Origin: a virus
Length of the DNA stretch: 46,217 nt
Virus record (IMG/VR): IMGVR_UViG_3300035583_000004
Span: 1-46,217 of that record
Direction: 5' to 3' (one strand)
The position numbers and the translations under genes were made by a program. Below the pieces are notes generated by a model, which made no database searches, had not been told where the DNA came from, and saw only the letters and a list, made by a program, of their open reading frames with translations. Positions 2,286 to 42,870 of the stretch are shown in pieces (within the stretch, counting starts at the first letter, position 1; each line of letters opens with the position of its first letter).

Positions 2286-4139
2286 ATGGCAACTTCACGA
2301 AGCATACACCGTGTAGTGAACAAAGCAAAAACCGCTGATTCAAAGATCCGCGCCAAGGCAGCAAAGTCTTCCAAGCAAACTCACGACAGCTTCGTAAATT
2401 TCGGGATGAAACTTGGCATGGGAGCAGACAACCCCATGTCAACTTCGTCTTACGGATTCAATCCTGTTTCGCGGATCCGCACTCTGATGGAGTGGATCCA
2501 CAGAGGGTCGTGGATCGGCGGAGTCGCCGTAGACATCATCGCTGAAGACATGACTCGTGAGGGGGTTGACCTTGACGGCGAGATTGACCCGAAGGACATT
2601 CAGAGACTCCATCGTGCCGCAGCCCGTCTGAACATATGGCAGGGGTTGCGAGACAACACAGCTTGGTCTCGCCTTTATGGCGGCAGCATCGCGGTGATGT
2701 TGGTTGACGGCCAGAAGGCCGACACGCCTTTGAATCTCAACGCAATCGGCAAAGGGCAATTCAAAGGTCTGTTGATTTTGGATCGTTGGATGGTGGAGCC
2801 TTCATTGTCTGACCTGGTGACCGAATTCGGGCCACACCTCGGCCTCCCGAAATTCTACACCGTGACAGCCGACGCTCCTGCCTTGCCGCGCATGCGCATT
2901 CATCACAGTCGCGTGATTCGCCAAGAAGGTATCCGCCTTCCATATTGGCAGAAGCTGCAAGAGAACTTCTGGGGTATTTCTGTTCTCGAGCGCATCTATG
3001 ATCGTCTGGTTGCGTTCGATTCCGCGACACAAGGCGCTGCTCAGCTCGTTCACAAGGCTTACGTCCGCACCTACAAGATCGAGGGGATGCGAGAGATCAT
3101 TGCAGAAGGCGGAACCGGAAAAGACGGGGCTGCATTGAACGGCCTCCTTCAATATACAGAATTCCTGCGTCGCTTCCAAGGCATCGAAGGCTTGACCTTG
3201 ATGGACAAAGAAGATGAATTTGAAGGCATCGTGGCCAACCCTTTCTCCGGTCTCAGCGAAGTGCTCATCCAATTTGGCCAGCAATTGTCTGGCGCACTGC
3301 AAGTCCCTTTGGTGCGGATGTTTGGACAATCCCCTGCGGGATTCAGCACAGGGGACGCAGACCTTCGCAACTATTATGACGGCGTGAATCAGAAGCAAGA
3401 GTCTGAACTGGGCGAAGGGGCGAATCTCATTTACCGGGTGATGGCGGCATCAGAAGGCATTTTGCTGCCAGACGACTTTGTTGTGTCGTTCCGCTCTCTG
3501 TGGCAATTGAGCGACAAAGAGAAATCGGAGATCGCGCAGACAGACGCAACAACAATCACGACAGCCGAGGGTGGTGGCTTGATCGACCTTTCAACGGCGC
3601 TCAAGGAACTTAAACAGTCTTCGCGCGCCACGGGTCGCTTCACCAACATCACATCTGAGATGATCAAAGATGCCGAAGGGCAAATGGCTCCAAGCGGCGA
3701 GGCAGCGATGAAGGAAGACGACACAAATGTCGTCTCCAAACCGGACACACCAGTTGTCGCCAAAGATCATTTGACACATGCCGCTGGCGTGCTTATTTTC
3801 TGTGGCAATAAATTCTTGGTTCTGCGCAGATCGCAAACAGGTCTGCTGCCCGGTGTTTGGGATTTGCCGGGCGGCCGCATCGAGCAAGGCGAAACACCGT
3901 CGCAAGCCGCCTTCCGCGAGTGTGATGAAGAGATCGGCTACATCCCGCACATCGTTCGTCAAATTGATCGCTCTGAAAATGGAGGTGTTGAATATGTGAC
4001 ATTCATCGCCGACGAGCCTTCGACATTTGACCCGAACATGAACACAGAACACGATCAATATGAGTGGGTGACCATTGAGAAGGCTCTGGAGAAACAATTG
4101 CATCCCGTCCTGCGCAGCCTCCTGAGGAGACTGTCATGA
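2286..4139 (+). CDS. Portal protein fused to a C-terminal Nudix hydrolase
   Basis: Residues 1 to about 475 are a DUF1073-type portal, the dodecameric ring at the DNA-entry vertex. Signs are the NPMSTSSYGFNP region, the MEWIHRGSWIGGVAVDIIAED helix, and PLVRMFGQSPAGFSTGDADL near 341-360. After a linker (about 476-495) comes a complete Nudix domain (496-617). Its box fits GX5EX7REUXEEXGU: G530, E536, R544-E545, E548-E549, G551. Nudix enzymes cleave nucleoside diphosphates linked to another group. In DUF1073 proteins this C-terminal slot can instead hold the Acb1 anti-CBASS phosphoesterase (established knowledge), so a Nudix here suggests a different nucleotide target (inference). The ribosome site AAAGG lies 7 bases before the ATG. 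No frameshift is seen at the junction. Confidence 0.9.
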   Translation: MATSRSIHRVVNKAKTADSKIRAKAAKSSKQTHDSFVNFGMKLGMGADNPMSTSSYGFNPVSRIRTLMEWIHRGSWIGGVAVDIIAEDMTREGVDLDGEIDPKDIQRLHRAAARLNIWQGLRDNTAWSRLYGGSIAVMLVDGQKADTPLNLNAIGKGQFKGLLILDRWMVEPSLSDLVTEFGPHLGLPKFYTVTADAPALPRMRIHHSRVIRQEGIRLPYWQKLQENFWGISVLERIYDRLVAFDSATQGAAQLVHKAYVRTYKIEGMREIIAEGGTGKDGAALNGLLQYTEFLRRFQGIEGLTLMDKEDEFEGIVANPFSGLSEVLIQFGQQLSGALQVPLVRMFGQSPAGFSTGDADLRNYYDGVNQKQESELGEGANLIYRVMAASEGILLPDDFVVSFRSLWQLSDKEKSEIAQTDATTITTAEGGGLIDLSTALKELKQSSRATGRFTNITSEMIKDAEGQMAPSGEAAMKEDDTNVVSKPDTPVVAKDHLTHAAGVLIFCGNKFLVLRRSQTGLLPGVWDLPGGRIEQGETPSQAAFRECDEEIGYIPHIVRQIDRSENGGVEYVTFIADEPSTFDPNMNTEHDQYEWVTIEKALEKQLHPVLRSLLRRLS

Positions 4140-5933: not shown

Positions 5934-6391
5934 CAATTCAGAAAGAACCTTGTGCGCGCGGCGGCGACGTGACCTTGACAGGCTTGGTGATTTTGGTGAC
6001 TGCGCTCTGTGTTGCCGCTTCTCATTGGTGGCCGACACACAACGACGCTTCCAAAGCCGTGATGAAAGAGGCGCTTGATAAAGCAACCACCGAAATCCAT
6101 CCGCAGATGGAAGTCGCCGACACAGCCGAACTTCGCGCCAAGGGATTGCGTGGACACGCGCCATTGGACGACTTGCACGGGCTGGTGTTGAAATTCGAGA
6201 AGCCTTCGGTGCAGTGCATCTGGAACAGAGGTGTCAGCTTCCCGGTGGACGCAGGGTTCTATGGCGAGGATGGCAGGCTGTTTGGCGGCGTGACCATGAA
6301 GGCGAATGAAGACATCCGCATTTGCACGAAACAGCCTGTGTTGTCAATTGTTGAAATGCGGGGTGGATGGTTTAAGGAGCATTTAAGATGA
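5930..6391 (+). CDS. Membrane-anchored DUF192-like protein
   Basis: A 153-residue protein with one hydrophobic segment (VTLTGLVILVTALCVAAS, about 15-32), so an N-terminal anchor or signal. The remainder follows the DUF192 pattern: GLRG, then LDDLHGLVLKFEK, CIWNRGVSFPVDAGFYGEDG, and a C-terminal EMRGGWF. DUF192 proteins are small beta folds, often exported, of unknown biochemical role. The GTG at 5930 is preferred because of the GTGA overlap and AAGGGA six bases before. Finding this domain in a phage head operon is unusual. The family assignment is from the pattern only. Confidence 0.65.
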   Translation: MTIQKEPCARGGDVTLTGLVILVTALCVAASHWWPTHNDASKAVMKEALDKATTEIHPQMEVADTAELRAKGLRGHAPLDDLHGLVLKFEKPSVQCIWNRGVSFPVDAGFYGEDGRLFGGVTMKANEDIRICTKQPVLSIVEMRGGWFKEHLR

Positions 6392-7077
6392 AAGGAGCTG
6401 TGATGGGGAAAGTTGAAAAAGTTATCAAGCGACTTGGGTTGGTGTTCTTCCTGTTTTTCCCTTTGTTGGTTGGCGTATTCGCCTTCAGCAACCCTGCGCA
6501 CGCTTGGCAGTTGTGGACTTCCAAGGGGGTTGAAGATGTAGTCCGCTCGAACAGCGAAGGATTCCGCCACACCTATTCGATGGGGTTGAGGATGCCAACG
6601 GCATCTATGGTTCCTGCCGCAACAGACATGATCGTCATGCGCGGAATAACCGGGAAGGTGATGCGCATCACGCGGGTGCAGGTGTCTGGCGACGTATCGA
6701 CGGCCACTTCTATTGATTTGTTTCTGATGAAGCGTTGGACACCAAACGTTGGCGGAACATCGGCTGTCGTGCCGGGCAACATCGTCCCGTATGATCCGGT
6801 CAACACCGCCACTGCGAGTGCGGTGTTTTATACCTACACCTCTAATCCGACTTCTCTTGGCACAGGAGGAATTGTCCGCACAGATGAATATCCTATGTCT
6901 CCGGATGTCAACGGCTATCCTGCGCAGCCTTTGATCTGGGATTTTGGAACGCGCAACTCAGAGATGCCAATGCTTCGTTCAGCCTCAGACACTCTGACCC
7001 TCAACTTCGGCGGCAACTCTGCTCCGGCAGGACTTGTCCTTTATATGGACGTTGAATGGACGGAGGACGTGCAATGA
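6388..7077 (+). CDS. Sec-exported beta-rich protein, paralogue A
   Basis: A 229-residue protein with an N-terminal signal peptide: basic KVEKVIKRLG, a hydrophobic core, and a likely cut AHA|WQ after residue 39. The C-terminal half aligns by eye with the protein at 8872. Both have VGGTS followed by VV, then T(A/S)NPT, a WDFG, a Leu-Arg, an APAG or FPAG turn and a final VEW-(T/I)-E. Two starts are possible: 6388 (ATGA overlap, AAGGAG 8 bases up) and 6403 (AAAGGAG 5 bases up). The mature protein would reach the periplasm. No known fold is recognised. Confidence 0.7.
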   Translation: MKGAVMGKVEKVIKRLGLVFFLFFPLLVGVFAFSNPAHAWQLWTSKGVEDVVRSNSEGFRHTYSMGLRMPTASMVPAATDMIVMRGITGKVMRITRVQVSGDVSTATSIDLFLMKRWTPNVGGTSAVVPGNIVPYDPVNTATASAVFYTYTSNPTSLGTGGIVRTDEYPMSPDVNGYPAQPLIWDFGTRNSEMPMLRSASDTLTLNFGGNSAPAGLVLYMDVEWTEDVQ

Positions 7078-7595
7078 AAACTTTCATCGGTCTCATCGCA
7101 TTGGCGCTTCTGGCGGGATGCGCTTCGCACAAACCAGACCCTGTTAAGCCTTGTCCATTTGTAAGCACTATAACTGGGCAGCACTTTTGTTATCCAAACG
7201 CGGACTTTAATCGCCCGGCAAAAGAGCCTCACGCCGAAGCCCCTTCGTCAGTTCTGGATTCTGAATCGCAGCACCTTGACGGCATCTTGCCGTTTGAAGA
7301 AAAAATCACTTTCCAAAAGAACAGCGCGGCTGTGAACGAGAAGATGATGAAGCGGTTGAACGCCATGACAAGCATGATGCTGATGGAGCCAAAATATAAC
7401 ATCAACGTGATCGGTGTCTCAAGCACGCGCGAGCAACCGGGTGTTGCCAAGCGGCGAGCCGAAGTGGTGATCATGGTGCTGAAGGAAGGCGGCGTTGATG
7501 AGAAGCGCATTCGTAGCACTTGGTTCAGGGTCAAGCCAGACACCTTGAACAGCGCAGACAGCTTGCGCAAAGTGATGTTGACCAACGCCCGTTAA
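7074..7595 (+). CDS. OmpA-like lipoprotein
   Basis: A 173-residue protein with a lipoprotein signal and lipobox LLAGC (Cys16), so it is probably lipidated and membrane-attached in the periplasm. Residues about 76-155 resemble the OmpA C-terminal domain: ITFQKNSAAVNEKMMKRL, then INVIGVSSTREQPGVAKRRA, then KEGGVDEKRI. That domain usually binds peptidoglycan. The normal GHTD Asp is replaced (GVSS), while the Arg of the RRAE segment is kept, so binding may be altered. The start is an ATGA overlap with the preceding exported-protein gene, preceded by GGAGG. Use in lysis, superinfection exclusion or envelope remodelling is open. Confidence 0.75.
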   Translation: MKTFIGLIALALLAGCASHKPDPVKPCPFVSTITGQHFCYPNADFNRPAKEPHAEAPSSVLDSESQHLDGILPFEEKITFQKNSAAVNEKMMKRLNAMTSMMLMEPKYNINVIGVSSTREQPGVAKRRAEVVIMVLKEGGVDEKRIRSTWFRVKPDTLNSADSLRKVMLTNAR

Positions 7596-7605
7596 GGATC
7601 GGAAA

Positions 7606-8601
7606 ATGCCAATTAAAGAGTTTAATAAAAAGCAATTGTCACTTGTATCTTTATTTGCAGGCGCAGGCGGTATGGATATAGGCTTTGAAAAGGCTGGATT
7701 TAAAACGGTATGGGCAAACGAATACGACAAAACCATAGCCCCTTCTTATCAAAAATACTTTCCAAAAACTAAGTTTGATGGGCGTTCAATCCGCGATATT
7801 CCCGATGCTGATTTTCCTGAAACAGTTACAGGAGTGATAGGTGGGCCGCCGTGTCAATCATGGTCACAAGCAGGTGCGCGTCGCGGCATTGAAGACCCTA
7901 GAGGAGAGTTATTTTTTGAGTACCTGCGCGTAATTAAACGCACAAAGCCTACGTTCTTTGTTGCTGAAAATGTCCACGGCTTAATTCATGCTCGCAACAT
8001 GGAATCGTTTAAACAAATAATAAAACTGTTTGAGAGCGAAGGTTATATCGTTAGCTGGAAGTTACTAAAAGCCAGTGATTACGGTGTTCCTCAAGATAGG
8101 CAGCGCGTATTTATCGTGGGCTACCATCAATCACTAAATAAAACTTTTAAGTTCCCTGAGCCGCTTAAAGCTAAAACAACATTGCGGGGTGCGATTGGTG
8201 ATTTAGCTAAATTGGAAATTGGTGCTACTAAAAAGGTAAAAAACCATGAGTTTATGGATAGTGGATATTCACCTATATTCATGTCAAGAAATCGCGTGAG
8301 GGGTTGGGATGAGCAGTCATATACAATTTTAGCTACTGATAGACATATACCTTTTCACCCACAAGCCCCTAAAATGGTGAAGGTAGAAGGACAGAAATTG
8401 CGAGAATTCGCACATGGTCACGAAAGTAAGTATAGGCGCTTAACCATCCGTGAATGCGCGAGGATTCAGACATTCCCTGATAATTATGAGTTTGTTTATA
8501 CGCACATGCGTAATGCCTACAAGATGATAGGAAATGCTGTGCCTGTTGATTTGGCGTATTGGGTAGCTAAAACCATTAAAGAGGATTTGGGGTTGAAATG
8601 A
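7606..8601 (+). CDS. DNA (cytosine-5) methyltransferase, M.HaeIII-like
   Basis: A complete 331-residue C5-methylase that transfers methyl from S-adenosylmethionine to cytosine. Motif I is LFAGAGGMDIGF (16-27), motif IV GGPPCQSWSQAG with catalytic Cys83, motif VI AENV (120-123), motif VIII QDRQR (163-167), and motifs IX/X RRLTIRECARIQTFPD and MIGNAVPV near the end. The stretch IFMSRNRVRGWDE and the HPQAP block resemble M.HaeIII as I remember it, so GGCC is the likely target (inference). The gene is visibly richer in A/T and TTA/AAA codons than its neighbours, which suggests recent transfer. The ribosome site AAGG lies in GGATCGGAAA. Confidence 0.93.
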   Translation: MPIKEFNKKQLSLVSLFAGAGGMDIGFEKAGFKTVWANEYDKTIAPSYQKYFPKTKFDGRSIRDIPDADFPETVTGVIGGPPCQSWSQAGARRGIEDPRGELFFEYLRVIKRTKPTFFVAENVHGLIHARNMESFKQIIKLFESEGYIVSWKLLKASDYGVPQDRQRVFIVGYHQSLNKTFKFPEPLKAKTTLRGAIGDLAKLEIGATKKVKNHEFMDSGYSPIFMSRNRVRGWDEQSYTILATDRHIPFHPQAPKMVKVEGQKLREFAHGHESKYRRLTIRECARIQTFPDNYEFVYTHMRNAYKMIGNAVPVDLAYWVAKTIKEDLGLK

Positions 8602-8773
8602 CGGAAACAAAAAACCAACGCAGACCGATTTTGGCAGAGCTTTTGAGTGGGAGGTTGGATGTTCTATAGGTCGCCAAACTGGTGCGCCAGTAATACCAAG
8701 TGCATTTTCAAAAGTGGCTGAAACCGCTTATGGAAAAATGAATGAAAAACAAAATAGGGAGTTAAATATATAA
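8598..8773 (+). pseudogene. Restriction-endonuclease N-terminal remnant (HaeIII-family-like)
   Basis: An ATG at 8598 overlaps the methylase stop (ATGA), as in a restriction-modification operon. The zero frame (MTETKNQRRPILAELL) ends at 8669. A -1 shift at A AAA AAC (8609-8615) gives PTQTDFGRAFEWEVG, SIGRQTGAP and VAETAYGKMNEKQN, open to TAA at 8773. The GRAFE start and the helical AETAY segment resemble the beginning of RE_HaeIII-type enzymes. The whole joined product is only about 58 residues and lacks any catalytic core. It is either a frameshifted and truncated gene, or a short protein made by programmed slippage. Codon use matches the methylase. Confidence 0.6.
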
Positions 8774-8795
8774 TTCTCAAAAGTAGTAGCTCCAC

Positions 8796-8853
8796 CCCTC
8801 CTCACCGTCGTGAGACCTCGGGAGGGATTTGATTAACTTAACGCCGTGAGGCG
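8796..8853 (+). promoter_or_regulatory. Structured 5' leader of exported paralogue B
   Basis: CTCAC-CGTC-GTGAG (8801-8814) is flanked by an outer CCCTC/GAGGG pair (8796-8800 with 8822-8826). It is followed by CGCC-GTGA-GGCG (8842-8853), whose loop is a GNRA type. No T-run follows, so termination is unlikely. The leader ends in AAAGGA before the ATG at 8872. It may protect the mRNA or mark the right end of the methylase insertion (inference). Confidence 0.4.
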
Positions 8854-8871
8854 CTAGAGAAAGGAAAGACC

Positions 8872-9825
8872 ATGAAGAAACTGCTCCACAAAATGGCAGT
8901 GGCTCTGATCGGAGTTTTGATCGCCGCACCTGCTTTTGCCCAAACGTACCCTGTCACCAATCCGACCTACATTCCACAGGCGGTGATGGCGGCGACCACT
9001 TACACCTCCACAGGCTTTACGACTGCTTACCAGATCAACGGTGTCACCACTCTGGACATCGGCATCACAGGGACTTTCACAGTTCTGTCCGCTCAAGTCC
9101 AGGTTACAGAGTCGCGCGGAACCAGCCCAACTTGGATCACACTTCCGGTTGATTCGGCAGATGGTGACCGATACGCTTCCATCACAGCAACAGGTAGCTA
9201 CCGCGTCAATGTGTCCGGCTACGCTCAGGCGCGTCTGAACATTGTCACCCTGACAGGCACCAATGTCATCGTTGGCTATTCTGGCGGGGTTGGCGCAGGG
9301 GTTTCTGGAACGTACAACGTTAACAAGCACACGTACAACGCCAGCGTCACGGCCTTGGTTCCTGCTGCATCTGCAACCGACATCCTGACCATCAGCGGCT
9401 CGGCAACGACCCTCGTCAAAGTCACCCATCTGGAGTGCGGAGGCCAAGCAACCTCGTCCGGCTCCAAGCTGATCCAACTGCAACAGCGTATCGCGTCAGA
9501 CGTTGGCGGAACTTCCTCTGTGGTGGCGGCGAATGCGTCTGACCTGTCCGACCCGGCACCAACAGCGGTGGTGACCTCGTTCACGGCAAACCCGACCGTT
9601 GGAACGGCAGCGTCCGGAGTGTTGCGCGTTGGCATCCTGAGCCTGCCTGCTTCCACGGCGGTTGGAACGCTTCCTCTTAGCTGGGACTTTGGCGCTCAAT
9701 CGCGCACTACCACTAAGGAAGTTGTTCTGCGCGGAACGAATCAGGTTCTGGCAATTCACGGTGCAGGTGCCAGCTTCCCAGCAGGATCCACGGTGAACTG
9801 TTCTGTCGAGTGGATCGAGGAATAA
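8872..9825 (+). CDS. Sec-exported beta-rich protein, paralogue B
   Basis: A 317-residue protein with a textbook signal peptide (MKKLLHK, hydrophobic core, cut AFA|QT after residue 23). The mature part is Thr/Val/Ser-rich and probably all beta. Its last ~115 residues match the protein at 6388 (VGGTSSVVAANAS, FTANPTVG, LPLSWDFGAQ, SVEWIEE), so the two are duplicated genes separated by the lipoprotein and methylase. The start has AAAGGA six bases upstream. Proteins assembled into a virion are normally cytoplasmic, so a signal peptide here is odd. Either it is secreted on its own, or the 'signal' serves another purpose. Confidence 0.7.
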   Translation: MKKLLHKMAVALIGVLIAAPAFAQTYPVTNPTYIPQAVMAATTYTSTGFTTAYQINGVTTLDIGITGTFTVLSAQVQVTESRGTSPTWITLPVDSADGDRYASITATGSYRVNVSGYAQARLNIVTLTGTNVIVGYSGGVGAGVSGTYNVNKHTYNASVTALVPAASATDILTISGSATTLVKVTHLECGGQATSSGSKLIQLQQRIASDVGGTSSVVAANASDLSDPAPTAVVTSFTANPTVGTAASGVLRVGILSLPASTAVGTLPLSWDFGAQSRTTTKEVVLRGTNQVLAIHGAGASFPAGSTVNCSVEWIEE

Positions 9826-9828
9826 GTC

Positions 9829-11202
9829 GTGGCGAAGCTCTTCTTCACAACAGAGAAGCTCGGGCCAAAACAGAGCATGACTCCGGAAGGCTATTTGCTC
9901 TGTGAGGACGTGCCGATCGCCCGAACAGGTGAAATGATTTACGGAGCCGTCGAATTGATGAATGACGACGAGTCCTATGTCATTCAACCAAAAGACGGAG
10001 AAGAGACAGTCCGCATAAACCGCGAGCCAGAAGAAGTTTTCCGCCCAGAAACTATTGCCAGCTTCAATGGCAAGTCGGTGACAGACGATCACCCCGAGTC
10101 CGGCGAAGTCAGCCCGGAAACTTGGAAGGAATTGACTGTCGGTGTGATCCAGCACACCCGCCAAGGCATCGGTCATCTATCCGACTTGCTGTTTGCGGAT
10201 TTGCTGATCACTCGACCAGACGCGATCGAGGCAGTGCGCACAGGAAAGCGCGAGGTCAGTTGTGGTTATCAAGCGGACTATGAAGACACAGGCAATGGAA
10301 CCGGGCGGCAAAAGAATATCATCGGGAATCACGTAGCGTTAGTCGAGTCTGGTCGCTGTGGCTGGCGTTGCGCTATTGGCGACCATCAACCAAAACAGAA
10401 GGAGAATCAAACCATGAAAATGAGTCCGAAGCAATGGCTCGACAAAGCCCTCAAAGCTCTGAAGTCGAAAGACGAAGGAGCTTTGTCCGAACTTGCCGAG
10501 ACAGCACCAGAAATGAAGACAGGCGATGACGACTTGCCTGACGACCAACACATCCACGTCCATCTGTCTGAGTCTGGCGCAGCCAAAACTGGCGACGAAG
10601 ACTTTGTGTCTCGTCAAGAGCATGAAGCACACGCCGCTGGTAATGCCGCAGAACATCAAGAATTCCGCGATGCCATCTCTGCCATCAAAGAGCACATCGG
10701 CATGAATGATGCCGACCCAGACCTGAAAGAAACTGAAGGCCAGTTGGAAATCGAAGCCCCTGTCGGCACAGGTGACAAAGCGCGCAAGGCAAATGACTCC
10801 GCTTACATGGCCGACAGCTTCCAAAGCACGATCGCCACGGCAGAAATCATCGCGCCCGGAATGCGTGTTCCAACATTCGACAAGGCTGCAAGTCCTGTTC
10901 AGACACTGAAGAAGGTGTGCGGCCATCGTCGCACAGCACTTGACTTGGCTTACGCTGCACCTGCCACTCGCGGCCTCGTGGAAGATGTGCTAGGCGGCAA
11001 GGCACTGGACACCAAGGCCATGTCCTGCGACCAAGTCCGCACGGTGTTCAACGCTGTCGGCGCGTTGGTGCGCAAGGCCAATAACGACGGCAACAAGGGT
11101 GATGGTTACGCGGCTCAAGCAACAGATGCCAAAAAGCCATTGATGAAGTCTGTCAAAGACATCAGCAAACTTTGGCAAGAGCAAAACGGTCAAAAAGCAT
11201 AA
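9829..11202 (+). CDS. DUF2213 head maturation protease with scaffold domain
   Basis: A 457-residue protein. Residues 1-185 match the DUF2213 phage family (MTPEGYLLCEDVPIARTG at the start). This family is thought to be a prohead protease with a His/Ser pair; candidates are His88 in TDDHPESG and Ser144 in EVSCGYQADY, with His168 nearby. From about 195 onward the protein is Lys/Glu/Ala-rich and helical, as expected for a scaffold. A central DDQHIHVHLSESG repeats the IHVHV motif of two other genes. The GTG start at 9829 has GAGG eight bases upstream. It lies directly before the decoration and capsid genes, the usual place for protease/scaffold. Confidence 0.8.
   Translation: MAKLFFTTEKLGPKQSMTPEGYLLCEDVPIARTGEMIYGAVELMNDDESYVIQPKDGEETVRINREPEEVFRPETIASFNGKSVTDDHPESGEVSPETWKELTVGVIQHTRQGIGHLSDLLFADLLITRPDAIEAVRTGKREVSCGYQADYEDTGNGTGRQKNIIGNHVALVESGRCGWRCAIGDHQPKQKENQTMKMSPKQWLDKALKALKSKDEGALSELAETAPEMKTGDDDLPDDQHIHVHLSESGAAKTGDEDFVSRQEHEAHAAGNAAEHQEFRDAISAIKEHIGMNDADPDLKETEGQLEIEAPVGTGDKARKANDSAYMADSFQSTIATAEIIAPGMRVPTFDKAASPVQTLKKVCGHRRTALDLAYAAPATRGLVEDVLGGKALDTKAMSCDQVRTVFNAVGALVRKANNDGNKGDGYAAQATDAKKPLMKSVKDISKLWQEQNGQKA
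10414..11202 (+). CDS. Nested scaffold protein from an internal start
   Basis: Within the protease gene and in the same frame, AAGGAGAATCAAACC directly precedes the ATG for MKMSPKQWLDKALKAL. The site is almost identical to the one used by the next gene at 11225. It would give a separate 262-residue scaffold equal to the protease C-terminus, as with lambda C/Nu3. The ribosome site and the domain border coincide, so I consider it likely real. Confidence 0.65.
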   Translation: MKMSPKQWLDKALKALKSKDEGALSELAETAPEMKTGDDDLPDDQHIHVHLSESGAAKTGDEDFVSRQEHEAHAAGNAAEHQEFRDAISAIKEHIGMNDADPDLKETEGQLEIEAPVGTGDKARKANDSAYMADSFQSTIATAEIIAPGMRVPTFDKAASPVQTLKKVCGHRRTALDLAYAAPATRGLVEDVLGGKALDTKAMSCDQVRTVFNAVGALVRKANNDGNKGDGYAAQATDAKKPLMKSVKDISKLWQEQNGQKA

Positions 11203-25871: not shown

Positions 25872-27776
25872 ATGTCCGGAACTAATGAGATCCTCCCATA
25901 TGCCGCTGGCGGTGGAGCCAATGTGCTGTCGCAGGCTCTCTATGCTGTGTTGGCAGAGAGAACAAATGGCGCACAGACAGGAACTGCCGTGTCGGCAAAT
26001 TTCAACAAGGCGATGCGCCAAGCAACTTTTGTCGCTGCAGCTATAACTGGTTGGCTAGCAGCCCAAAATGTCAATGTTCCGGATGACGGAAACTTAACCA
26101 CCATCGTGAACAACTTCCTTGCCCAGATTCCGGGAAAGGTTGTAGCCAGCGTTGCGGCGTTGCGCGCCTTGCCGAAAGGTGGGTCAGGGAATGCTTTAGT
26201 TCTTGGTTATTCCAACCTGAACGACGGTGGAGGAGGGGAATACTACTGCGACGCAGCAGATTTAACTTCTGTAGACAACGGTGGGACGATAATTGTCGCC
26301 GCCGATGGAGGTCGCTGGAAGTTGATATGGGATGGCCTTTTGACACCAGAAGCATTTGGCACCAAGGGCGACGGGACAACCGATGACACAGCAGCAATCA
26401 ACGCATGCTTGGCTGCTGCGGCTGCTCATGTCAACCAGAACATCAGTGACCAAAATCAACGTCGGCGTTATGTCCCGGTTTGGTTTGTGGACGCTGTCTA
26501 CAAGATCACCTCACAGATCGTCGTTCCTGCTGGCGTGCAGATCGTCTGCGACGGCGGAATAATCCTCAATGCTTTAGCAAGCACCACAACGCCTGCTTTG
26601 CTTTTTAATGCAGGGTCGCACTGCAAGCTCCTTGTAGTAAATGCAGCCGGGGGAAGTGGTGCTCAATTCGGAAATGTCGTCGCAGGGGCGGGGCAATACT
26701 GCGACATGCTGATCGGAAAGGTGCGAATTCTTGGGGCAGGAACAACTGCTTCAATCCTCGGTGTGCGAATTGTCGGTTCTCGCTTTGATATCGAAGATCT
26801 CGAGGTCAACGGGGGCAATGTCGGAATTGACTTGGGCGATGGAACAACCAACGGAGCACGGTTGGTCAATTGCGGCACACTCAAAGTGACCCAGCCTGCC
26901 ACGGGCATACGTTTTGGTTCTAACTGCGAGCATATCTCCATAAACAACTTCACCATCGACACCCCAAGTGTTGTAGGGATTTCGGCAGACGGATCGAGGA
27001 GTCTACGCGCGCGCGGAATTATTTTCGGAGATGATGGAGCCGCCTTCGCACCTTGTTCTTCTGGATATGCAGTTATTCTCGGGAATACTTCGGCTGTGTC
27101 CGACATCAGCCTGGATGTCACCGTCAACAATACAGCTAATGTAGATAACGTCGTTGGAACAGCGATCAAAATAAGCAACTGCGGCCAATCAAATATCACT
27201 GTCAACGCAAGCAGCGCCACGCTCTCTACAGGCAATGCCCATCGCTTAAAAAACGGTGTTGAATATGGGGCGGGTGTCGGGATAGGAGTTTCGGTTCAGC
27301 ACACAATTAGTCAATCTATTGTTCCGACAGTTGGTTCAGCAGCAGGGAACAACTCGCAGACAGGGTCGGGAATACCAGCAGGAACGATTATCGACTTTTC
27401 AGGAGTCTCTGCCCCTCCGGGTTTTTTAATTTGCCCGGGCGCACCTGCTAACATTAGTCGCACCACTTATTCCGCACTGTTCGCTGCCATCGGCACGGCA
27501 TGGGGCATAGGCGATGGAGCGACAACCTTCGGCATCCCGTGGTTCCCGGCGGATTATGCGGCGGTGCAGGCAAATGCCAACGTGGGTACGGCGACAATCG
27601 GACAGGTGATAGCGCACACACATACGATGAATAGTATTATTTCGGAAATAGCGGGCGCAGCGTTGCCCAATTTCCTTGCTTCAGGAACAGTAGGGGCGCA
27701 GCCAACAACAGGATCAACAGGCGGCACCGCCAACCTCGCCGCCGGAGTCCGCGTCCTGAAATGCGTTAAGATATAG
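25872..27776 (+). CDS. Tailspike/fibre with beta-helix and collar domain
   Basis: A 634-residue receptor-binding protein. The N-terminal 110 residues are the virion attachment part (MSGTNEILPYAAGGGANVLS). The centre from about 155 (TPEAFGTKGDGTTDDTAAIN) is a pectate-lyase-type beta-helix entry motif, as in polysaccharide-degrading tailspikes. The C-terminus has a phage tail-collar domain (PAGTIIDFSGVSAPPGFLIC, then HTHTMNS and a final VRVLKCVKI). Depolymerase activity against a host capsule or O-antigen is possible but not shown. Confidence 0.82.
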   Translation: MSGTNEILPYAAGGGANVLSQALYAVLAERTNGAQTGTAVSANFNKAMRQATFVAAAITGWLAAQNVNVPDDGNLTTIVNNFLAQIPGKVVASVAALRALPKGGSGNALVLGYSNLNDGGGGEYYCDAADLTSVDNGGTIIVAADGGRWKLIWDGLLTPEAFGTKGDGTTDDTAAINACLAAAAAHVNQNISDQNQRRRYVPVWFVDAVYKITSQIVVPAGVQIVCDGGIILNALASTTTPALLFNAGSHCKLLVVNAAGGSGAQFGNVVAGAGQYCDMLIGKVRILGAGTTASILGVRIVGSRFDIEDLEVNGGNVGIDLGDGTTNGARLVNCGTLKVTQPATGIRFGSNCEHISINNFTIDTPSVVGISADGSRSLRARGIIFGDDGAAFAPCSSGYAVILGNTSAVSDISLDVTVNNTANVDNVVGTAIKISNCGQSNITVNASSATLSTGNAHRLKNGVEYGAGVGIGVSVQHTISQSIVPTVGSAAGNNSQTGSGIPAGTIIDFSGVSAPPGFLICPGAPANISRTTYSALFAAIGTAWGIGDGATTFGIPWFPADYAAVQANANVGTATIGQVIAHTHTMNSIISEIAGAALPNFLASGTVGAQPTTGSTGGTANLAAGVRVLKCVKI

Positions 27777-33392: not shown

Positions 33393-33810
33393 CCGCGATC
33401 CTTTCCCAGTGACCTTTATTTCTGACAGGCACGGTGGCGTGCCAAAGTGCGATGCTAGCCAATTCGCCAACCGTCATCTCGTTGATGTCGTCCGCAAAAG
33501 AACCCCCGATAAGCATCCTGTTCTTTCCTGTGTCAATGTATACATAAGCAAGCCCTCCAGAATTCATCTGACGCTTTATCCAGTTCTTCTGATCTTGACT
33601 CAGCTTGTGATTAGAACCGAACAACGGGGTCGTTGCGCGCTTCGGTTCTTTGGGTGCTTTTATTTCAATGTGGAATTCAACACCGCTGAAACAACCGTTG
33701 GTGTCTGGCCAGCCGCCCACGACAACATTTTCAACACGATCCAGCCTGCGGTTAATTCGTGATCCGACAAGATTATTCTTCAGCGTTTTGAATGCGCTGG
33801 TCTCGCTCAT
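33367..33810 (-). CDS. VRR-NUC nuclease
   Basis: A 147-residue PD-(D/E)XK-fold nuclease: GGWPDTNGC, then FHIEIKAPKEPK (Glu-x-Lys), then KLSQDQKNWIKRQMNSGG. VRR-NUC enzymes act on DNA structures such as junctions and often pair with SNF2 helicases in phages, as here. ATGA overlap with the polymerase gene and GAGG in front decide the start at 33810. Confidence 0.85.
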   Translation of the reverse strand: MSETSAFKTLKNNLVGSRINRRLDRVENVVVGGWPDTNGCFSGVEFHIEIKAPKEPKRATTPLFGSNHKLSQDQKNWIKRQMNSGGLAYVYIDTGKNRMLIGGSFADDINEMTVGELASIALWHATVPVRNKGHWERIADVIAERKV

Positions 33811-36569
33811 TTGTCCATCCTCTTCCATTTCTGAATGAACAAATAACGAATGCCATTGTAGAATGTCGCTCTGACCATCAGATGAGCGCCCACGGGAACA
33901 TTCTCCAGAAGGTCTTTACCGATGGCTTGATAATCCCAACGGCTGATGCGGCCTCCAATTGTTCCTGTGTCATCGCGCAGCCGAATGTCAACAAATTCTC
34001 GTGGCCCGCCTTCAACTTTGCCGCCGCGCTTTTTGACGTTCACCTCTTCGTTGTGGTCTCTGGCATTTTTGTAAATCAATTCCCCAAGCACGACACGTTG
34101 TTCTTTGTGTGGAATCCCTTCTTTCAACTCATCAACTTTCCACAGCTTGCCTGAAATATTGTGCGCAGCAGGATTCGCATACACGTCGCCATAAAGTGTC
34201 TGGAACGGAAAGATGTTAGAAAATATGTTGGTGGCAGAATTAACGGCTTTAAACATTTTCGGATCAATCTTTCCGGCTGATCTTTGTTCAATTGCTTTCT
34301 TGGCTTTGCTTTCCCCGAGGCCATGCAGGTTCAAAAACCCTCCGTAAAGAATCCCGTCCTTCGCACACCAATTCATTTCTGACTTTTCAATATCGAAAGG
34401 AACGTAGTTTATCCCTTCCTTGACCATTTCGCGCAACAACTCGATCGCGCTGTCTTCGTCCTTGGCATTGCGCAGATTGGCTGCGGCAAATTCCATCAGG
34501 TGATGAGCTTTCAAATAGGCCGTCCAATAGCTGATGATGGCGTAGCTGTAGGTGTGAGCCTTGTTCATTTGCCATGCGCCCATGGCATTGATCATCCCCC
34601 AAGTCGCCCTTGCCTCTTTTTCTTCGATGCCTTGGCTGGCCGCGCCTTCCTTGAACCTCTCCCAGTATTTGTCGAAAAACTCTTTGCCCATGCTCTTGGA
34701 CATGGCCTTGCGAATGGTGCTTGTTTCCTTCCAATCAAACTTGCCGATATTTTTTACAATGGCCAGTGTCTGTTCTTGATAAACAGGAAGGCCATATGTT
34801 TCGCTCATGTATGATTCAACAAGCGGATGGATTGATTCGTATGGCTCGCCCTTTTTTCTTTTCACATATTTTTCTGTAACACCGCCGCCCAATGGGCCAG
34901 GACGAGCAAGTGCCGTCACAGCATCAATTTCGACAATGCTTTTGAAATCAATATCGCGTGAGATTGTGCGAAGAGCGTTTCCTTCAAATTGAAAGATGCC
35001 GCACAATCTTTGTTGGTTGAACACATCATATGTTGCAGGGTCATCGAGTGGCAATCCATACCAATCAATGTTCAGACCAGAGTCTTCAAGCACGCCCAAT
35101 GTTCGCAGACCGAGCACGTCAATTTTGAGAAGCCCAAGTTCTTCAGCAGACTCCTTGTCGATGTGCGCGATTCCTTTGTCGTCAACTGTTGCGTAATTTG
35201 TGACAGGCTCGTTGCTGACCAGAAGGCCAGCGGCATGCACACCAGTGTGAGAGGCATGACCTTCTAATGCAGCAGCCTTCATGACGGCAGGATATCCTGC
35301 TACAAGAAGCTTGCCCGGATCCGTTTGTGTCAAGGTGTCCTCGAGACAATTATTGGCGCGAGCGTCTGCTGAAGAACGTTCAATCATCGCAACCTTGACC
35401 GCGCCAGTCGCTGCTGGCGGTATGTTCAGAGCTTTGCACACCCTGCTCAGGGCGCTCTTCGGTCTGTAAACAGACAAGGTTCCGATGTGTGCGGCGTTTT
35501 CAATCCCATATTTGGCGGCCATATAATCAAACACCATATGACGCTTGTTGTCGGGAAAGTCCAGATCGATGTCTGGAAGGTCGCTACGCGAAACGTCAAT
35601 AAACCGCTCGAAGAATAACTTTGGAGGAATCGGATTCACCTCCGTGATTCGTGTCAACCAACAAACAAGAGAGCCTGCGCTGCTGCCGCGACTCGGGCCG
35701 ACCAGCATGTGTTGTTTGGCATAACAAACCATGTCTGCAACAATCAAAAAATAAGAAACGAAATCCTTGCTCTCTATCAACTCCAATTCGTATTTGAGTC
35801 GGGTCTCATATTCTTCCGTCCATTTTCTTTCCATTCTGCGGAACTTTATCCCCTCGCGGCACAACGCCTCGAGATCGCCTTTCGCACGGATCATTGGGGC
35901 GCGTGGCAGCTCAATCGCGGAACAGGATTGAGCAATATCGTGAGCAGCACCCTGTCCTTCCAGTTCCGCCAAAATGTGCTGCGGGGTTGGCTTTTCATTG
36001 CGGCCGATGAGTTGGAATGTCTCTTTGTCTTCTGGCTTTGTGTAGGCGTTATCAGAAACGCCAACCAAATGCAACCCGTTGCGTTCTGCGATGCCGCGCT
36101 TCTGCAAGGCCAACACGCGGCTGGCCGGAGAAATGTCCACAACAGCACCAACGGATGTCAGAAACTCTTCGTCAACAAGGTCGCCAGCAAACTTGATGAT
36201 GTTGATGCTCATCTTGCGAACGTCAGAACGGCGCAGCGCAGGTGTGTTGCCACGCTTGCCGGGCATCGGCTGCTGATAGGTCTTTGACACCCAGCGATAA
36301 AGTTCTTGCAAGCCTGCAAGGTTCTTGGCCAAGAACCACATACAAGGGAAGCTGTCTTCCTCGTCCGTCACCACAAGCTCGACACCCAACAACGGCTGAA
36401 TGCCAGCGGCCTTGCACGCTTTGAACCAGCGCACGTGACCCCATGTGCTTTGCTTGTCAACGATGCCAGCATGCGTGCAGCCTTGTTCCTTCAGACACGC
36501 AATGACTTTGTTCATCGGCGCGAAAGTGTCGCCGAAGCTGTATTCAGTTCTGATGCGGAGTTGGATCAC
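33807..36569 (-). CDS. DNA polymerase III alpha-like (family C) polymerase
   Basis: A 920-residue replicative polymerase. It has GPSRGSSAGS (291-300), PDIDLDFPDNKRH (332 onward) with catalytic Asp, and LLKIDVLGLRTL (about 481-492) with the third Asp, followed by fingers and an OB-like C-terminus. The N-terminal PHP domain keeps its fold signs (TEYSFGDTF, AGIQPLLGVEL) but the metal His residues are lost (Arg-Ile-Arg in place of His-x-His, VDK for TDH). PHP activity is therefore unlikely. The GTG at 36569 overlaps the 36566 gene stop (GTGA). Proofreading is presumably supplied by the DnaQ gene upstream. Confidence 0.93.
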   Translation of the reverse strand: MIQLRIRTEYSFGDTFAPMNKVIACLKEQGCTHAGIVDKQSTWGHVRWFKACKAAGIQPLLGVELVVTDEEDSFPCMWFLAKNLAGLQELYRWVSKTYQQPMPGKRGNTPALRRSDVRKMSINIIKFAGDLVDEEFLTSVGAVVDISPASRVLALQKRGIAERNGLHLVGVSDNAYTKPEDKETFQLIGRNEKPTPQHILAELEGQGAAHDIAQSCSAIELPRAPMIRAKGDLEALCREGIKFRRMERKWTEEYETRLKYELELIESKDFVSYFLIVADMVCYAKQHMLVGPSRGSSAGSLVCWLTRITEVNPIPPKLFFERFIDVSRSDLPDIDLDFPDNKRHMVFDYMAAKYGIENAAHIGTLSVYRPKSALSRVCKALNIPPAATGAVKVAMIERSSADARANNCLEDTLTQTDPGKLLVAGYPAVMKAAALEGHASHTGVHAAGLLVSNEPVTNYATVDDKGIAHIDKESAEELGLLKIDVLGLRTLGVLEDSGLNIDWYGLPLDDPATYDVFNQQRLCGIFQFEGNALRTISRDIDFKSIVEIDAVTALARPGPLGGGVTEKYVKRKKGEPYESIHPLVESYMSETYGLPVYQEQTLAIVKNIGKFDWKETSTIRKAMSKSMGKEFFDKYWERFKEGAASQGIEEKEARATWGMINAMGAWQMNKAHTYSYAIISYWTAYLKAHHLMEFAAANLRNAKDEDSAIELLREMVKEGINYVPFDIEKSEMNWCAKDGILYGGFLNLHGLGESKAKKAIEQRSAGKIDPKMFKAVNSATNIFSNIFPFQTLYGDVYANPAAHNISGKLWKVDELKEGIPHKEQRVVLGELIYKNARDHNEEVNVKKRGGKVEGGPREFVDIRLRDDTGTIGGRISRWDYQAIGKDLLENVPVGAHLMVRATFYNGIRYLFIQKWKRMDK

Positions 36570-36850
36570 GAATGCGCGCCCTCCGGTTCGACCACAGGAT
36601 CCTTTTCGACGATGAACGCGTGCGCAGTTTCCTTTTCTGCTCCGTAGCAACCCGCCTCGCAACTGTGACAGAATGAAAATGGGGGTGTCATATCTTTGCA
36701 CTCGTGCCTCTTGGCGGGCTTGCAGTTGCCGATGTTGCCTTGATTGCATGGCATCAAATCGTCAAGCCCACAGCCACATGAGCCTCCACCAAGCCCGTCG
36801 AATCCATTCTGTTCAAGCCATACACTTATAATTTTGCGAACGTCCATCAT
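36566..36850 (-). CDS. Cys-rich small protein
   Basis: A 94-residue protein with about ten Cys: CGCGLDDLMPC, then NCKP, then FCHSCEAGCYG. It resembles small phage proteins starting MDVRKIISVWLEQNGFDGL that carry one or two zinc sites. GGGGAG is six bases before the first of two adjacent ATGs, and the exonuclease stop lies between them. It sits between exonuclease and polymerase. Confidence 0.65.
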   Translation of the reverse strand: MMDVRKIISVWLEQNGFDGLGGGSCGCGLDDLMPCNQGNIGNCKPAKRHECKDMTPPFSFCHSCEAGCYGAEKETAHAFIVEKDPVVEPEGAHS

Positions 36851-37383: not shown

Positions 37384-38127
37384 TCAAAGCAGTCTGTGAA
37401 TCGTTACGCCCGGCTTCTGCGAGATGCGCTCTTCCGGCTTGTCAAGCTTCAATCCAAGGTTGTTCAACTTGGAATAAATAGCCCCGGCGCAATGCCCTGT
37501 TTTCTCCGCCATTTCCTTTGTGTCTGCTCCGGCCTCGAACAGCTCAACCAAGGTGTCTGTCTGCCCCTTCGTCCATGGCATGCGCTTTTTCGGAGAGTCC
37601 AATTCTCCAGCAGTGAAGGAAATCGGCTTAGTCAGAACGGGCGACTTGTTGTAAGCGTCCGAGTCGTGAATCTTGACAACTTCGGCGTTGATTCCGACTC
37701 TTCTGTACATTTTCACAACATCTTCGCGGTCATCGTAAGCGCAATGAATGTCGCTTATTGAACAAGAAGTCATGAGCATGGAAAGTTGCCAGCTTTTTAG
37801 CACGACAGATGGTCTGTGGTCGCTTTCGCCACGCATGTAAAGTTCTTTGAACGGAACTCTATGGCGCTCAAGCCATTTAAGCGTTTCGCTGCGGAACCGT
37901 TCCGGGCGCGACGTGAAAATCACAATGTCGTCAAACCACCCTTGGAACAAATGGGCATTGCGGAGTTCGTCTTTGTAAGACAGAGCATGATACACCGCAT
38001 AGCGTTTGTCCGGATCAGATTGCGACCAATCGATAAATCTGATGCGCCACTCATCGTCCGCTATGCAATTGTCAAGGTCGAGGATTCTGATTTTGTTTCT
38101 GATTTTGTTTCTGATTTTGCTTGTCAT
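37384..38127 (-). CDS. HAD phosphatase fused to a Myb/SANT-like domain
   Basis: A 247-residue protein. Residues 1-155 are a HAD-type phosphatase like the 3'-phosphatase of phage polynucleotide kinases: ILDLDNCIADD (Asp17, Asp19), IFTSRPERFR, and HCAYDDREDVV. Residues about 183-228 (MPWTKGQTDTLVELFEAGAD) are a three-helix DNA-binding domain also found in the 30852 protein. Its N-terminus is a triple 12-bp repeat reading KIRNKIRNKIRI. AAGGGTGG is upstream of ATG 38127. DNA-end processing is a reasonable guess. Confidence 0.75.
   Translation of the reverse strand: MTSKIRNKIRNKIRILDLDNCIADDEWRIRFIDWSQSDPDKRYAVYHALSYKDELRNAHLFQGWFDDIVIFTSRPERFRSETLKWLERHRVPFKELYMRGESDHRPSVVLKSWQLSMLMTSCSISDIHCAYDDREDVVKMYRRVGINAEVVKIHDSDAYNKSPVLTKPISFTAGELDSPKKRMPWTKGQTDTLVELFEAGADTKEMAEKTGHCAGAIYSKLNNLGLKLDKPEERISQKPGVTIHRLL
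38086..38121. repeat. Three 12-bp tandem copies
   Basis: TCTGATTTTGTT is repeated three times (the third differs at one base) in the start of the HAD gene. On the - strand this encodes KIRN repeats. A site of slippage variation is possible. Confidence 0.75.
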
Positions 38128-38128
38128 T

Positions 38129-38203
38129 TCATTTCCACCCTTTATATTCACGGAATTCTTGTTCTGTTGCGACAGACACGACGCGAAGGTCTTCTGGCTT
38201 CAC
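38129..38203 (-). CDS. 24-residue frame with strong ribosome site
   Basis: GTG start with AAAAAGGAGAAAGG upstream. It reads MKPEDLRVVSVATEQEF and ends one base before the HAD start. It may couple or regulate translation of that gene. No family is recognised. Confidence 0.4.
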   Translation of the reverse strand: MKPEDLRVVSVATEQEFREYKGWK

Positions 38204-40659: not shown

Positions 40660-42810
40660 TCAAAAAGCAAGTTTTAAATTTGAAATTTGGTCTGGCGACA
40701 CAAAATCTTTTGTCTTTGAATAAACTGTGGTCATCCTTTCCGGGAATCTGTGAAGGCCGTCTTTGCGGCTGTTGTTTCTTACAAGGTGATATCCCTGCCT
40801 TATCATTGCGGGTTGCATCTTTGGCGCATATTCTTTAGAGCTTCCGCCCCCGGAAACAAGCACAGCCATTATCGCGTCACTTCTTACAAGGTCTGGCTCT
40901 CCCAATGAATTCAAGGCATCAATCAGCCAGTAGTCCCCTGCGAAAGAACTGCTGACAATGCTTTGGTGCGCTTGCGTCTTACGCTGGCCATTGCTTGCGT
41001 CAAATTCGCTGATGTCGCGCTGTTGCAAAAATGCGGCAACGTGTTCCGCTCCGCCTTCGTGATTAAACCAATGCCAAAGCACAGAGAAATATTCGCGCAC
41101 TTTTTCTGGTTCGTCTAGCCCCATTTCAATTTTGCTTGCCGCCTCAATCACATCATAGCGCCTGTCATCCGGCGGAATGTAAATGCCAGTCAGCATGTGA
41201 TTGGTTGTGACGATCACGCCACAATACATCTTCACCGAATATTTTTGGCCGTACTTTGGATTGATGGTTTGGTGATCTGGTGAACCTGCGATGAGAACTT
41301 TCATACGCTCGTTGAATGCCCACTTGCTCATGTCGTGCAGGTTGGCAGCTTCGCTCACTCGCACAAGAGTTGATGCGGCGTATTCGTTGAAGCCTGAGTC
41401 CAATATGCTTGGCTCGACGTTCGCAACGTTCCATGCGCCAATTGCAGGTATGCAGAATTCTACGGCTGTGTCTTTGCCGACACCCTGATCGCCAGCAATG
41501 AGCAAAGAAAAACGAGGCTTTTCTTCTGGCTTCTGCACGCGGTGCGCCATGTAGTCCAAAAATTGATCCGCGTCTCCAGGCTTATTGAACACCTTGCGAA
41601 CGTGATCCAAGAATGGCGTTGCTTGCTTTGCGTCGCCTGGTTCAATCGCAGGCCAGCGATAACTGTTGAACACAGCAGAACCTGCCTCCGCGATCAATTC
41701 ACCTTCACGACAATCGAATCCTTTTATATAGTCCCCGATCAAAGCCGGAGACTTGGTCATGCTGGTTGCCAGCATCGTTGCTTTCAAAAAATCGCTGGCC
41801 GGAATTAGCGAGCCATTGTGATTGACCTTCCCGACTGCGCAGTCAACAGCTTCCTTTATCCACATGCCTACAGTTGGGCGATAAACGAAATTATTTCCCG
41901 GCGCGAAATAGATGAAATTTTCAACAGGAACGACACCTGATTTTGGAGCCCAGCCATTCTCAATCGCAAGATGAACAATGCTGCCCATCGAAAGTTCTTT
42001 GCCTGAGGCTTTATCTTGCGAGATCTCGTAGAACGCTTCACGCATTATTTCATCGTGGTTCCGCCCTTTTTGGCCGCCATGCTTTTCAGACCACACAACG
42101 TATTCAGACCATGCTTCGTCGCTGCGCGCAAATTCCCTGCCGAGTATTATTCCGACATTCCTCCACAGATCTCTGTCGTCTGCAGGGATGCTTTCCAACA
42201 TCACCCGAACTTCTTCCAAGGAATATTTGCGCCTGGTGTGATCAACACCTTTTTTCCTGCCGCGAGTTTCTTTTTTGGCGGCCAGCAAATAAGGAGGGAG
42301 GTCGTCTGGCATAGAATTATTCAGCCAAGCATAAGCGCCCCCTGAGCGATGCTTGGAAGGCGGAGCAACTATATAGCCTCCGTCATTCCGCACATCGATG
42401 CCTTTGCCAAGTCTGTTCGAGCCTGTGCGCAACGCGGAATTGTACTTGAACAAAACATGCATGCCACCGGAGCCTGTCTTAGACATCAAGGTGTCTGGCT
42501 CACCATGCTCGGCAATCAACTCAGACCAACTCTCCGCACCACCTTTGTTCGGACCAACGTCGATGTCAATCACTGTCAAACCAGAGACTTTTCCTGTCAC
42601 TATGCCGATGTTGCATCCGGGTGAAGAGAAAAGCTCGTTCAGTTTTTCTGGATCCGTTGTTCCATCCTTCAAGCCGTTTTTTGTGGCGGGGTGCTTCCCT
42701 GCGTCCGGGCAGGACAAGCGACCACAAGTGCATTGGCCGTCCAAGTTGATTCCGTGAATTGGGAAAACGCGCCATCCGCGCGATGCGTATTGCTTTGCGA
42801 TTTCTAACAT
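40660..42810 (-). CDS. Primase-polymerase / superfamily 3 helicase
   Basis: A 716-residue replication protein. An N-terminal AEP-type bifunctional primase-polymerase has CTCGRLSCPDAGKHPA (zinc-like), VIDIDVG (about 81-87) with the catalytic DxD, GGMH (115-118) and GIDVRNDGGYIVAPP. A PriCT-like helix (SLEEVRVMLESIPADDRDLW) follows. The C-terminal ATPase (DUF5906-like) has Walker A GDQGVGKDT (440-448). It primes and unwinds phage DNA. ATG 42810 has AAAGGGG in front. Confidence 0.9.
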   Translation of the reverse strand: MLEIAKQYASRGWRVFPIHGINLDGQCTCGRLSCPDAGKHPATKNGLKDGTTDPEKLNELFSSPGCNIGIVTGKVSGLTVIDIDVGPNKGGAESWSELIAEHGEPDTLMSKTGSGGMHVLFKYNSALRTGSNRLGKGIDVRNDGGYIVAPPSKHRSGGAYAWLNNSMPDDLPPYLLAAKKETRGRKKGVDHTRRKYSLEEVRVMLESIPADDRDLWRNVGIILGREFARSDEAWSEYVVWSEKHGGQKGRNHDEIMREAFYEISQDKASGKELSMGSIVHLAIENGWAPKSGVVPVENFIYFAPGNNFVYRPTVGMWIKEAVDCAVGKVNHNGSLIPASDFLKATMLATSMTKSPALIGDYIKGFDCREGELIAEAGSAVFNSYRWPAIEPGDAKQATPFLDHVRKVFNKPGDADQFLDYMAHRVQKPEEKPRFSLLIAGDQGVGKDTAVEFCIPAIGAWNVANVEPSILDSGFNEYAASTLVRVSEAANLHDMSKWAFNERMKVLIAGSPDHQTINPKYGQKYSVKMYCGVIVTTNHMLTGIYIPPDDRRYDVIEAASKIEMGLDEPEKVREYFSVLWHWFNHEGGAEHVAAFLQQRDISEFDASNGQRKTQAHQSIVSSSFAGDYWLIDALNSLGEPDLVRSDAIMAVLVSGGGSSKEYAPKMQPAMIRQGYHLVRNNSRKDGLHRFPERMTTVYSKTKDFVSPDQISNLKLAF

Positions 42811-42842
42811 GCCGCCCCTTTGAATTGGACTGGGTGATTGCC

Positions 42843-42870
42843 CAAGCCCTCTCCGCAAAGAAAGGGCTTG
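42843..42870 (-). other. Intergenic hairpin upstream of the primase
   Basis: CAAGCCCT/AGGGCTTG (42843-42850 with 42863-42870), 12-base loop, between the 42883 gene and the primase start. There is no T-run on the - strand. Another of several U-less stems between early genes. Confidence 0.5.

Follow-up and report, generated by a model that had tools for sequence, protein, structure and literature searches.

The methylase gene and its genomic setting

The window analyzed here is the whole stretch of 46,217 bases, a viral record with genes for the terminase, the portal, head maturation, the major head protein, the tail and replication. On its plus strand, positions 7606-8601 contain an intact gene for an M.HaeIII-type DNA (cytosine-5) methyltransferase of 331 aa (PF00145, E 8e-93). 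In a PDB sequence search the best solved relative was M.HaeIII itself (1dct, E 5.9e-98), matching over the whole length. Motifs I, IV (PCQ), VI (ENV), VIII (QxRxR), IX and X of the C5 methyltransferases are all present and in order. In an alignment with 10 relatives the PCQ, ENV, QxRxR, IRECARIQ and GNAVP blocks are kept, as is the target-recognition stretch NRVRxWxE...HPQAPxM. This region resembles that of M.HaeIII, with NRVRGWDEQSYTILATDRHIPFHPQAPKM aligning to a stretch of 29 residues in 1dct. The methylase cassette has a G+C content of about 38-45%, against about 50-60% around it; together with the PF00145 and 1dct matches, this agrees with an earlier note on this DNA, which had described an AT-rich M.HaeIII-like methylase. 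The methylases found in the INPHARED phage collection are all at most 60% identical to it.

The gene is embedded in the head gene cluster. Its left neighbor (7056-7595, plus strand) is a phage lipoprotein-like gene with similarity to OmpA-like proteins, with a counterpart in a syntenic relative (L016:5471-5935), and its right neighbor (8872-9825, plus strand) is a head-cluster gene with a signal peptide that in L016 directly follows the lipoprotein. Both genomes share the order portal-NUDIX, head morphogenesis, signal-peptide gene, lipoprotein, homologue of the gene at 8872 and DUF2213-like gene. In L016 the last lipoprotein and the 8872 homologue are separated by 53 bases, with no methylase gene there. 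Since this syntenic relative keeps the same gene order without the methylase, the cassette is an addition to the window phage, a loss in L016 being less likely. The ends of the cassette showed no convincing repeats of the sort expected from a defined mechanism of insertion (just one imperfect pair of 12 nt, at 8704 and 8773), and neither a terminator nor a special structure found support in 8774-8875. A search for relatives by way of the head-maturation gene (9829-11202) found none.

Several other features of this genome deserve mention. The portal gene (2286-4139) carries a fused C-terminal NUDIX hydrolase domain (PF06381 and PF00293, E 2e-21), and the presence of the same fusion in L016 (L016:1504-3576, 42% identity) shows it to be conserved rather than an artefact of assembly. 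The two signal-peptide proteins of the head cluster (6388-7077 and 8872-9825) are alike in their C-terminal parts, both match L019:3646-4119 and neither has a PHROGs family. A replication block on the minus strand (37384-38151, 33807-36749 and 40660-42858) encodes a PNKP-like phosphatase, a DnaE-type polymerase and a Prim-Pol protein.

A truncated restriction gene behind the methylase

The stop codon of the methylase (TGA, 8599-8601) overlaps the ATG (8598-8600, plus strand) of a second reading frame. This ATGA overlap, already pointed out in the earlier note, is confirmed by the coordinates, and an identical one is found in a second viral contig (L010, see below). In its own frame this second gene (8598-8669, plus strand) runs for 23 codons to a TAG, and the product has no family match. 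The -1 frame (8615-8773, plus strand) reads PTQTDFGRAFEWEVGC... and corresponds to residues ~6-57 of an endonuclease of the RE_HaeIII family before ending at a TAA (8771-8773). The product would have 58 residues counting the six before the slip, 52 of them from the A-run onward, in accordance with the length of about 58 given in the earlier note.

The relationship to RE_HaeIII was recognized through the neighbors of related methylases, for which eight bacterial contigs with close methylases were used. The -1 frame is 63% identical over 57 residues to the restriction enzyme of Bartonella tamiae (L009:3989-4927), an intact protein of 312 aa (PF09556, RE_HaeIII, E 1.4e-56) that starts MTTSKQPTQTEFGRAFEWAVGCSMQSQTGA...SYGKMNEK. 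Its gene directly overlaps that of its methylase, which is 85% identical to the window methylase. A profile HMM of the intact restriction proteins matches the -1 frame at positions 5-57 of 311 (E 3.9e-10). Comparing the -1 product with RE_HaeIII-type enzymes was one of the checks proposed in the earlier note; the similarity is there, it is not due to chance, and the claim that a restriction enzyme start follows the heptamer is correct. The 58-aa fragment taken alone gave no real match in Pfam, NCBIfam or PDB sequence searches because it is so short, and a PDB match to a cytochrome trimer was rejected as a repeat artefact.

DNA similarity to the intact Bartonella gene stops at 8754 (blastn against L009 and L012), which places the right-hand breakpoint at 8755-8773. 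The profile found no further RE_HaeIII match in the reading frames of the window. Because the similarity ends here and nothing else in the window matches, the 3' four fifths of the gene, some 255 residues of the protein, have been lost. What remains ends at residue ~57, before the conserved core, and so falls short of the full domain of ~300 residues with its catalytic core. Type II restriction-modification (R-M) requires an active methylase and an active restriction enzyme with one target, and the latter is not encoded here. Of the two possibilities raised in the earlier note, the loss of a working restriction gene with retention of the protective methylase is the one supported by these data: the N terminus is truly that of RE_HaeIII, the remainder is gone and the methylase motifs are preserved.

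Copies of the cassette in other phages

A stretch of the window (7614-8697, plus strand) is shared with L010 (positions 122-1206), a 21 kb viral contig from another sample. By blastn and pairwise alignment, the methylase and the start of the restriction gene are 98.4% identical at the nucleotide level over 1,085 bases. The run of six A in the window is one of seven A in L010, whose restriction gene start is in frame (MTETKKPTQTDFGRAFEWAVGC...). There the gene is cut after ~34 codons, equivalent to 8697 in window numbering and earlier than the cut in the window. A gene for a family A DNA polymerase comes directly after it, the stop of the stub lying one base before the polymerase ATG. L027, from a further sample and assembly, repeats the run of seven A, the cut near codon 34 and the end of the cassette. 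The two right-hand breakpoints of the restriction gene, in the window and in L010, are different and could represent either independent or nested cuts. Outside the cassette, comparison of the whole L010 contig with the window gave a single weak helicase similarity (27%). Given 98.4% identity within the cassette and contigs that are otherwise essentially unrelated, the cassette has moved recently between unrelated phages. A third phage (L011) has a methylase that is 90% identical and no restriction gene at all. As a separate observation, an SNF2-type helicase of the L010 phage (L081:13423-15993) carries an intein-like insert (CVDSDTEYLSPTGW...) with a weak LAGLIDADG match (E 0.0026).

In a maximum-likelihood tree of the methylases, the window and L010 are sisters (98/87), followed by Bartonella, L011 and Sideroxydans. 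Both truncated copies, together with L011, fall within a clade of complete R-M systems, completeness referring here to those bacterial members whose contigs extend far enough. A donor nearer than the Sideroxydans contig L002 (77%) was not found among 399 genomes of its order. The restriction gene is often lost elsewhere in this family too. Viral contigs with a family methylase numbered 44, not all of them independent, and a complete restriction gene adjoins the methylase in seven; in one it is split by a frameshift, in one it is cut by the contig end, and one more is L010. The other 34 have none, 26 of these being contigs with 1 kb or more of sequence to either side. A contig classed as viral (L012/G003, IMGVR 2529293189_000001) contains the complete HaeIII-type R-M system of Bartonella tamiae. 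In a Rickettsia endosymbiont (L003:3948-4883) a HaeIII-type restriction gene is interrupted by stops into three pieces, and its close copies L004 and L005 are intact.

The methylase of the window is altered at otherwise conserved sites such as Q88 and G195; the position of Q88 is E, and once L, in nine of the other rows of the alignment. Between the methylases of the window and L010 there are 11 nonsynonymous and four synonymous changes, a dN/dS of 0.75, although raised ratios are common on short branches. For the more distant pairs with L011 or L009 the value is 0.04-0.06 (Fisher p 0.0004). In the window-L010 comparison, the changes in the window mostly depart from the family consensus. This ratio, together with the substitutions at conserved sites, suggests that the methylase itself may be drifting under relaxed constraint.

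The A AAA AAC heptamer

The second frame reads ACA AAA AAC at its codons 4-6, which puts the slippery heptamer A AAA AAC in phase at 8609-8615 (plus strand), just where the earlier note had located it. With its run of six A the remnant is out of frame past codon 5. The most likely explanation is the deletion of one A from a seven-A run in an already disposable gene, or else an error of base calling. The latter, which would mean that in the phage the stub is in frame, like that of L010, and that the truncation is the only real lesion, we regard as a possibility of the less likely kind. A run of six or seven A is a typical place for such errors, and the copy with 98.4% identity shows seven A in two assemblies; against this, 16 substitutions separate the window from that copy where the two align, and one real indel would then be no surprise.

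The earlier note had offered, as its other possibility, a short protein produced through programmed slippage. A -1 frameshift at this heptamer yielding a functional restriction fragment of 58 residues, for example a regulator of the methylase, now seems very improbable. As in the frameshift signals of dnaX and IS elements, the heptamer is of the canonical X XXY YYZ type and in the correct phase, and experiments on the M.HaeIII gene have demonstrated slippage past homopolymer runs (PMC3812077). Unlike in those systems, it comes without a stimulatory structure, conservation or a functional product after the slip. No stimulatory structure was found at the right distance, the RNA 3' of the heptamer folding no better than shuffled sequences (z-score 0.25). 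Nor was a conserved slip signal with an extended product found: L010 and L027 have seven A in frame and need no slip, and the sister copy would give a different peptide of 40 aa. Intact homologues, the Bartonella gene (L009) among them, have no A-run at this position. Such heptamers are also abundant, with 35 in frame in 27 plus-strand ORFs of the window, and A AAA AAC itself occurs in frame at 8238, within the methylase, and at 27248, in another ORF. The restriction residues, in turn, stop at about 57, short of the conserved core. The bypass measured in the M.HaeIII gene occurs at a low level (PMC3812077), for which reason traces of the 58-aa product would not prove a function. Programmed slippage is thus unsupported in the light of the in-frame copy with seven A, the Bartonella gene lacking the run, the z-score and the differing peptides. 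That the N-terminal stub was retained on purpose, as a methylase-coupled peptide or a translational bridge tuning the methylase or the next gene, with the A-run setting the frame, is hardly more plausible. We give least credence to phase variation, in which the A-run near the start would switch the restriction gene on and off. The run does differ between the two copies (six and seven A), and in a prophage-like contig (L071:3513-4500) a HaeIII-type restriction gene is in two frames, split around a run of seven A near codon 30. This run sits elsewhere in the gene, however, the intact Bartonella gene has none, and with the core missing in both phages no phase would restore the enzyme.

GGCC depletion

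GGCC occurs 135 times in the window against 208 expected and is the second most under-represented of the 256 tetramers. The depletion persists in a codon-shuffle control (106 against 141, z -4.0). In the relative without the methylase (L016, G405) GGCC is far rarer still (three against 23 expected) and GATC is found seven times against 61 expected; this poverty in both tetramers points strongly to restriction or to methyl-directed avoidance. GGCC is also the most depleted tetramer of the L012/G003 contig (30 against 79). Scarcity of GGCC is expected if the window and L016 phages meet GGCC restriction, and we take it as supporting but not decisive, given that avoidance of this tetramer has other possible causes and varies with G+C.

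Origin and role of the cassette

Taken together, the locus is very probably a cassette of phage cargo with an orphan HaeIII-type methylase, its restriction partner deleted down to an N-terminal stub, and it probably protects GGCC sites. This reading builds on the observed homology, deletion of the restriction gene, sister copy and empty site. The ancestor would have had a complete pair like those that Bartonella tamiae and Sideroxydans still have. Phages would have retained the methylase and lost the restriction gene through a large 3' deletion. The window phage would also have dropped one A from the seven-A run at codons 5-7, creating the A AAA AAC heptamer, a loss of no consequence in a restriction gene already dead or soon to be so; the order of these two lesions is conjectural. 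Presumably transcribed with the head genes, the methylase would methylate GGCC in replicating phage DNA, and the packaged DNA would then resist hosts that cut at this site.

Among known systems, the closest is the type II R-M of M.HaeIII/R.HaeIII (PF00145 and PF09556, GGCC), to whose methylase that of the window is a close relative over its whole length. The order methylase-restriction gene, overlapping or adjacent, is as in Bartonella tamiae (L009), Sideroxydans (L002) and Rickettsia (L005). Unlike in these systems, the restriction gene has only ~57 codons and a frameshift, so that no restriction enzyme is made, and it is located in a phage head operon. Phage genes (terminase, portal, capsid and tail) surround a methylase without a restriction enzyme, which is the situation of the orphan methyltransferases of phages. 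These include the HaeIII/BspRI-like methylase annotated in Wphi and P2-like phages, which likewise originated from type II R-M and lacks an active partner. A phage-borne methylase without a restriction enzyme shields the DNA of its phage from restriction enzymes of matching specificity (reviewed in PMC12707154), and the presumed role of the window methylase is the same. Most of the phage methylases in this analysis have no remnant of the restriction gene beside them, whereas the window and L010 keep a stub that documents their origin.

The locus is therefore of a known kind, an orphan phage methylase, and its value is that of a well-documented intermediate with the restriction stub still attached. 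It also illustrates that gene decay alone can produce a textbook slippery heptamer, a point of relevance to the automatic annotation of frameshifts. With the complete pair, two different cuts of the restriction gene and a phage lacking this gene in one tight clade, and with the syntenic phage without the cassette (L016) in addition, the formation of an orphan methylase has been caught midway.
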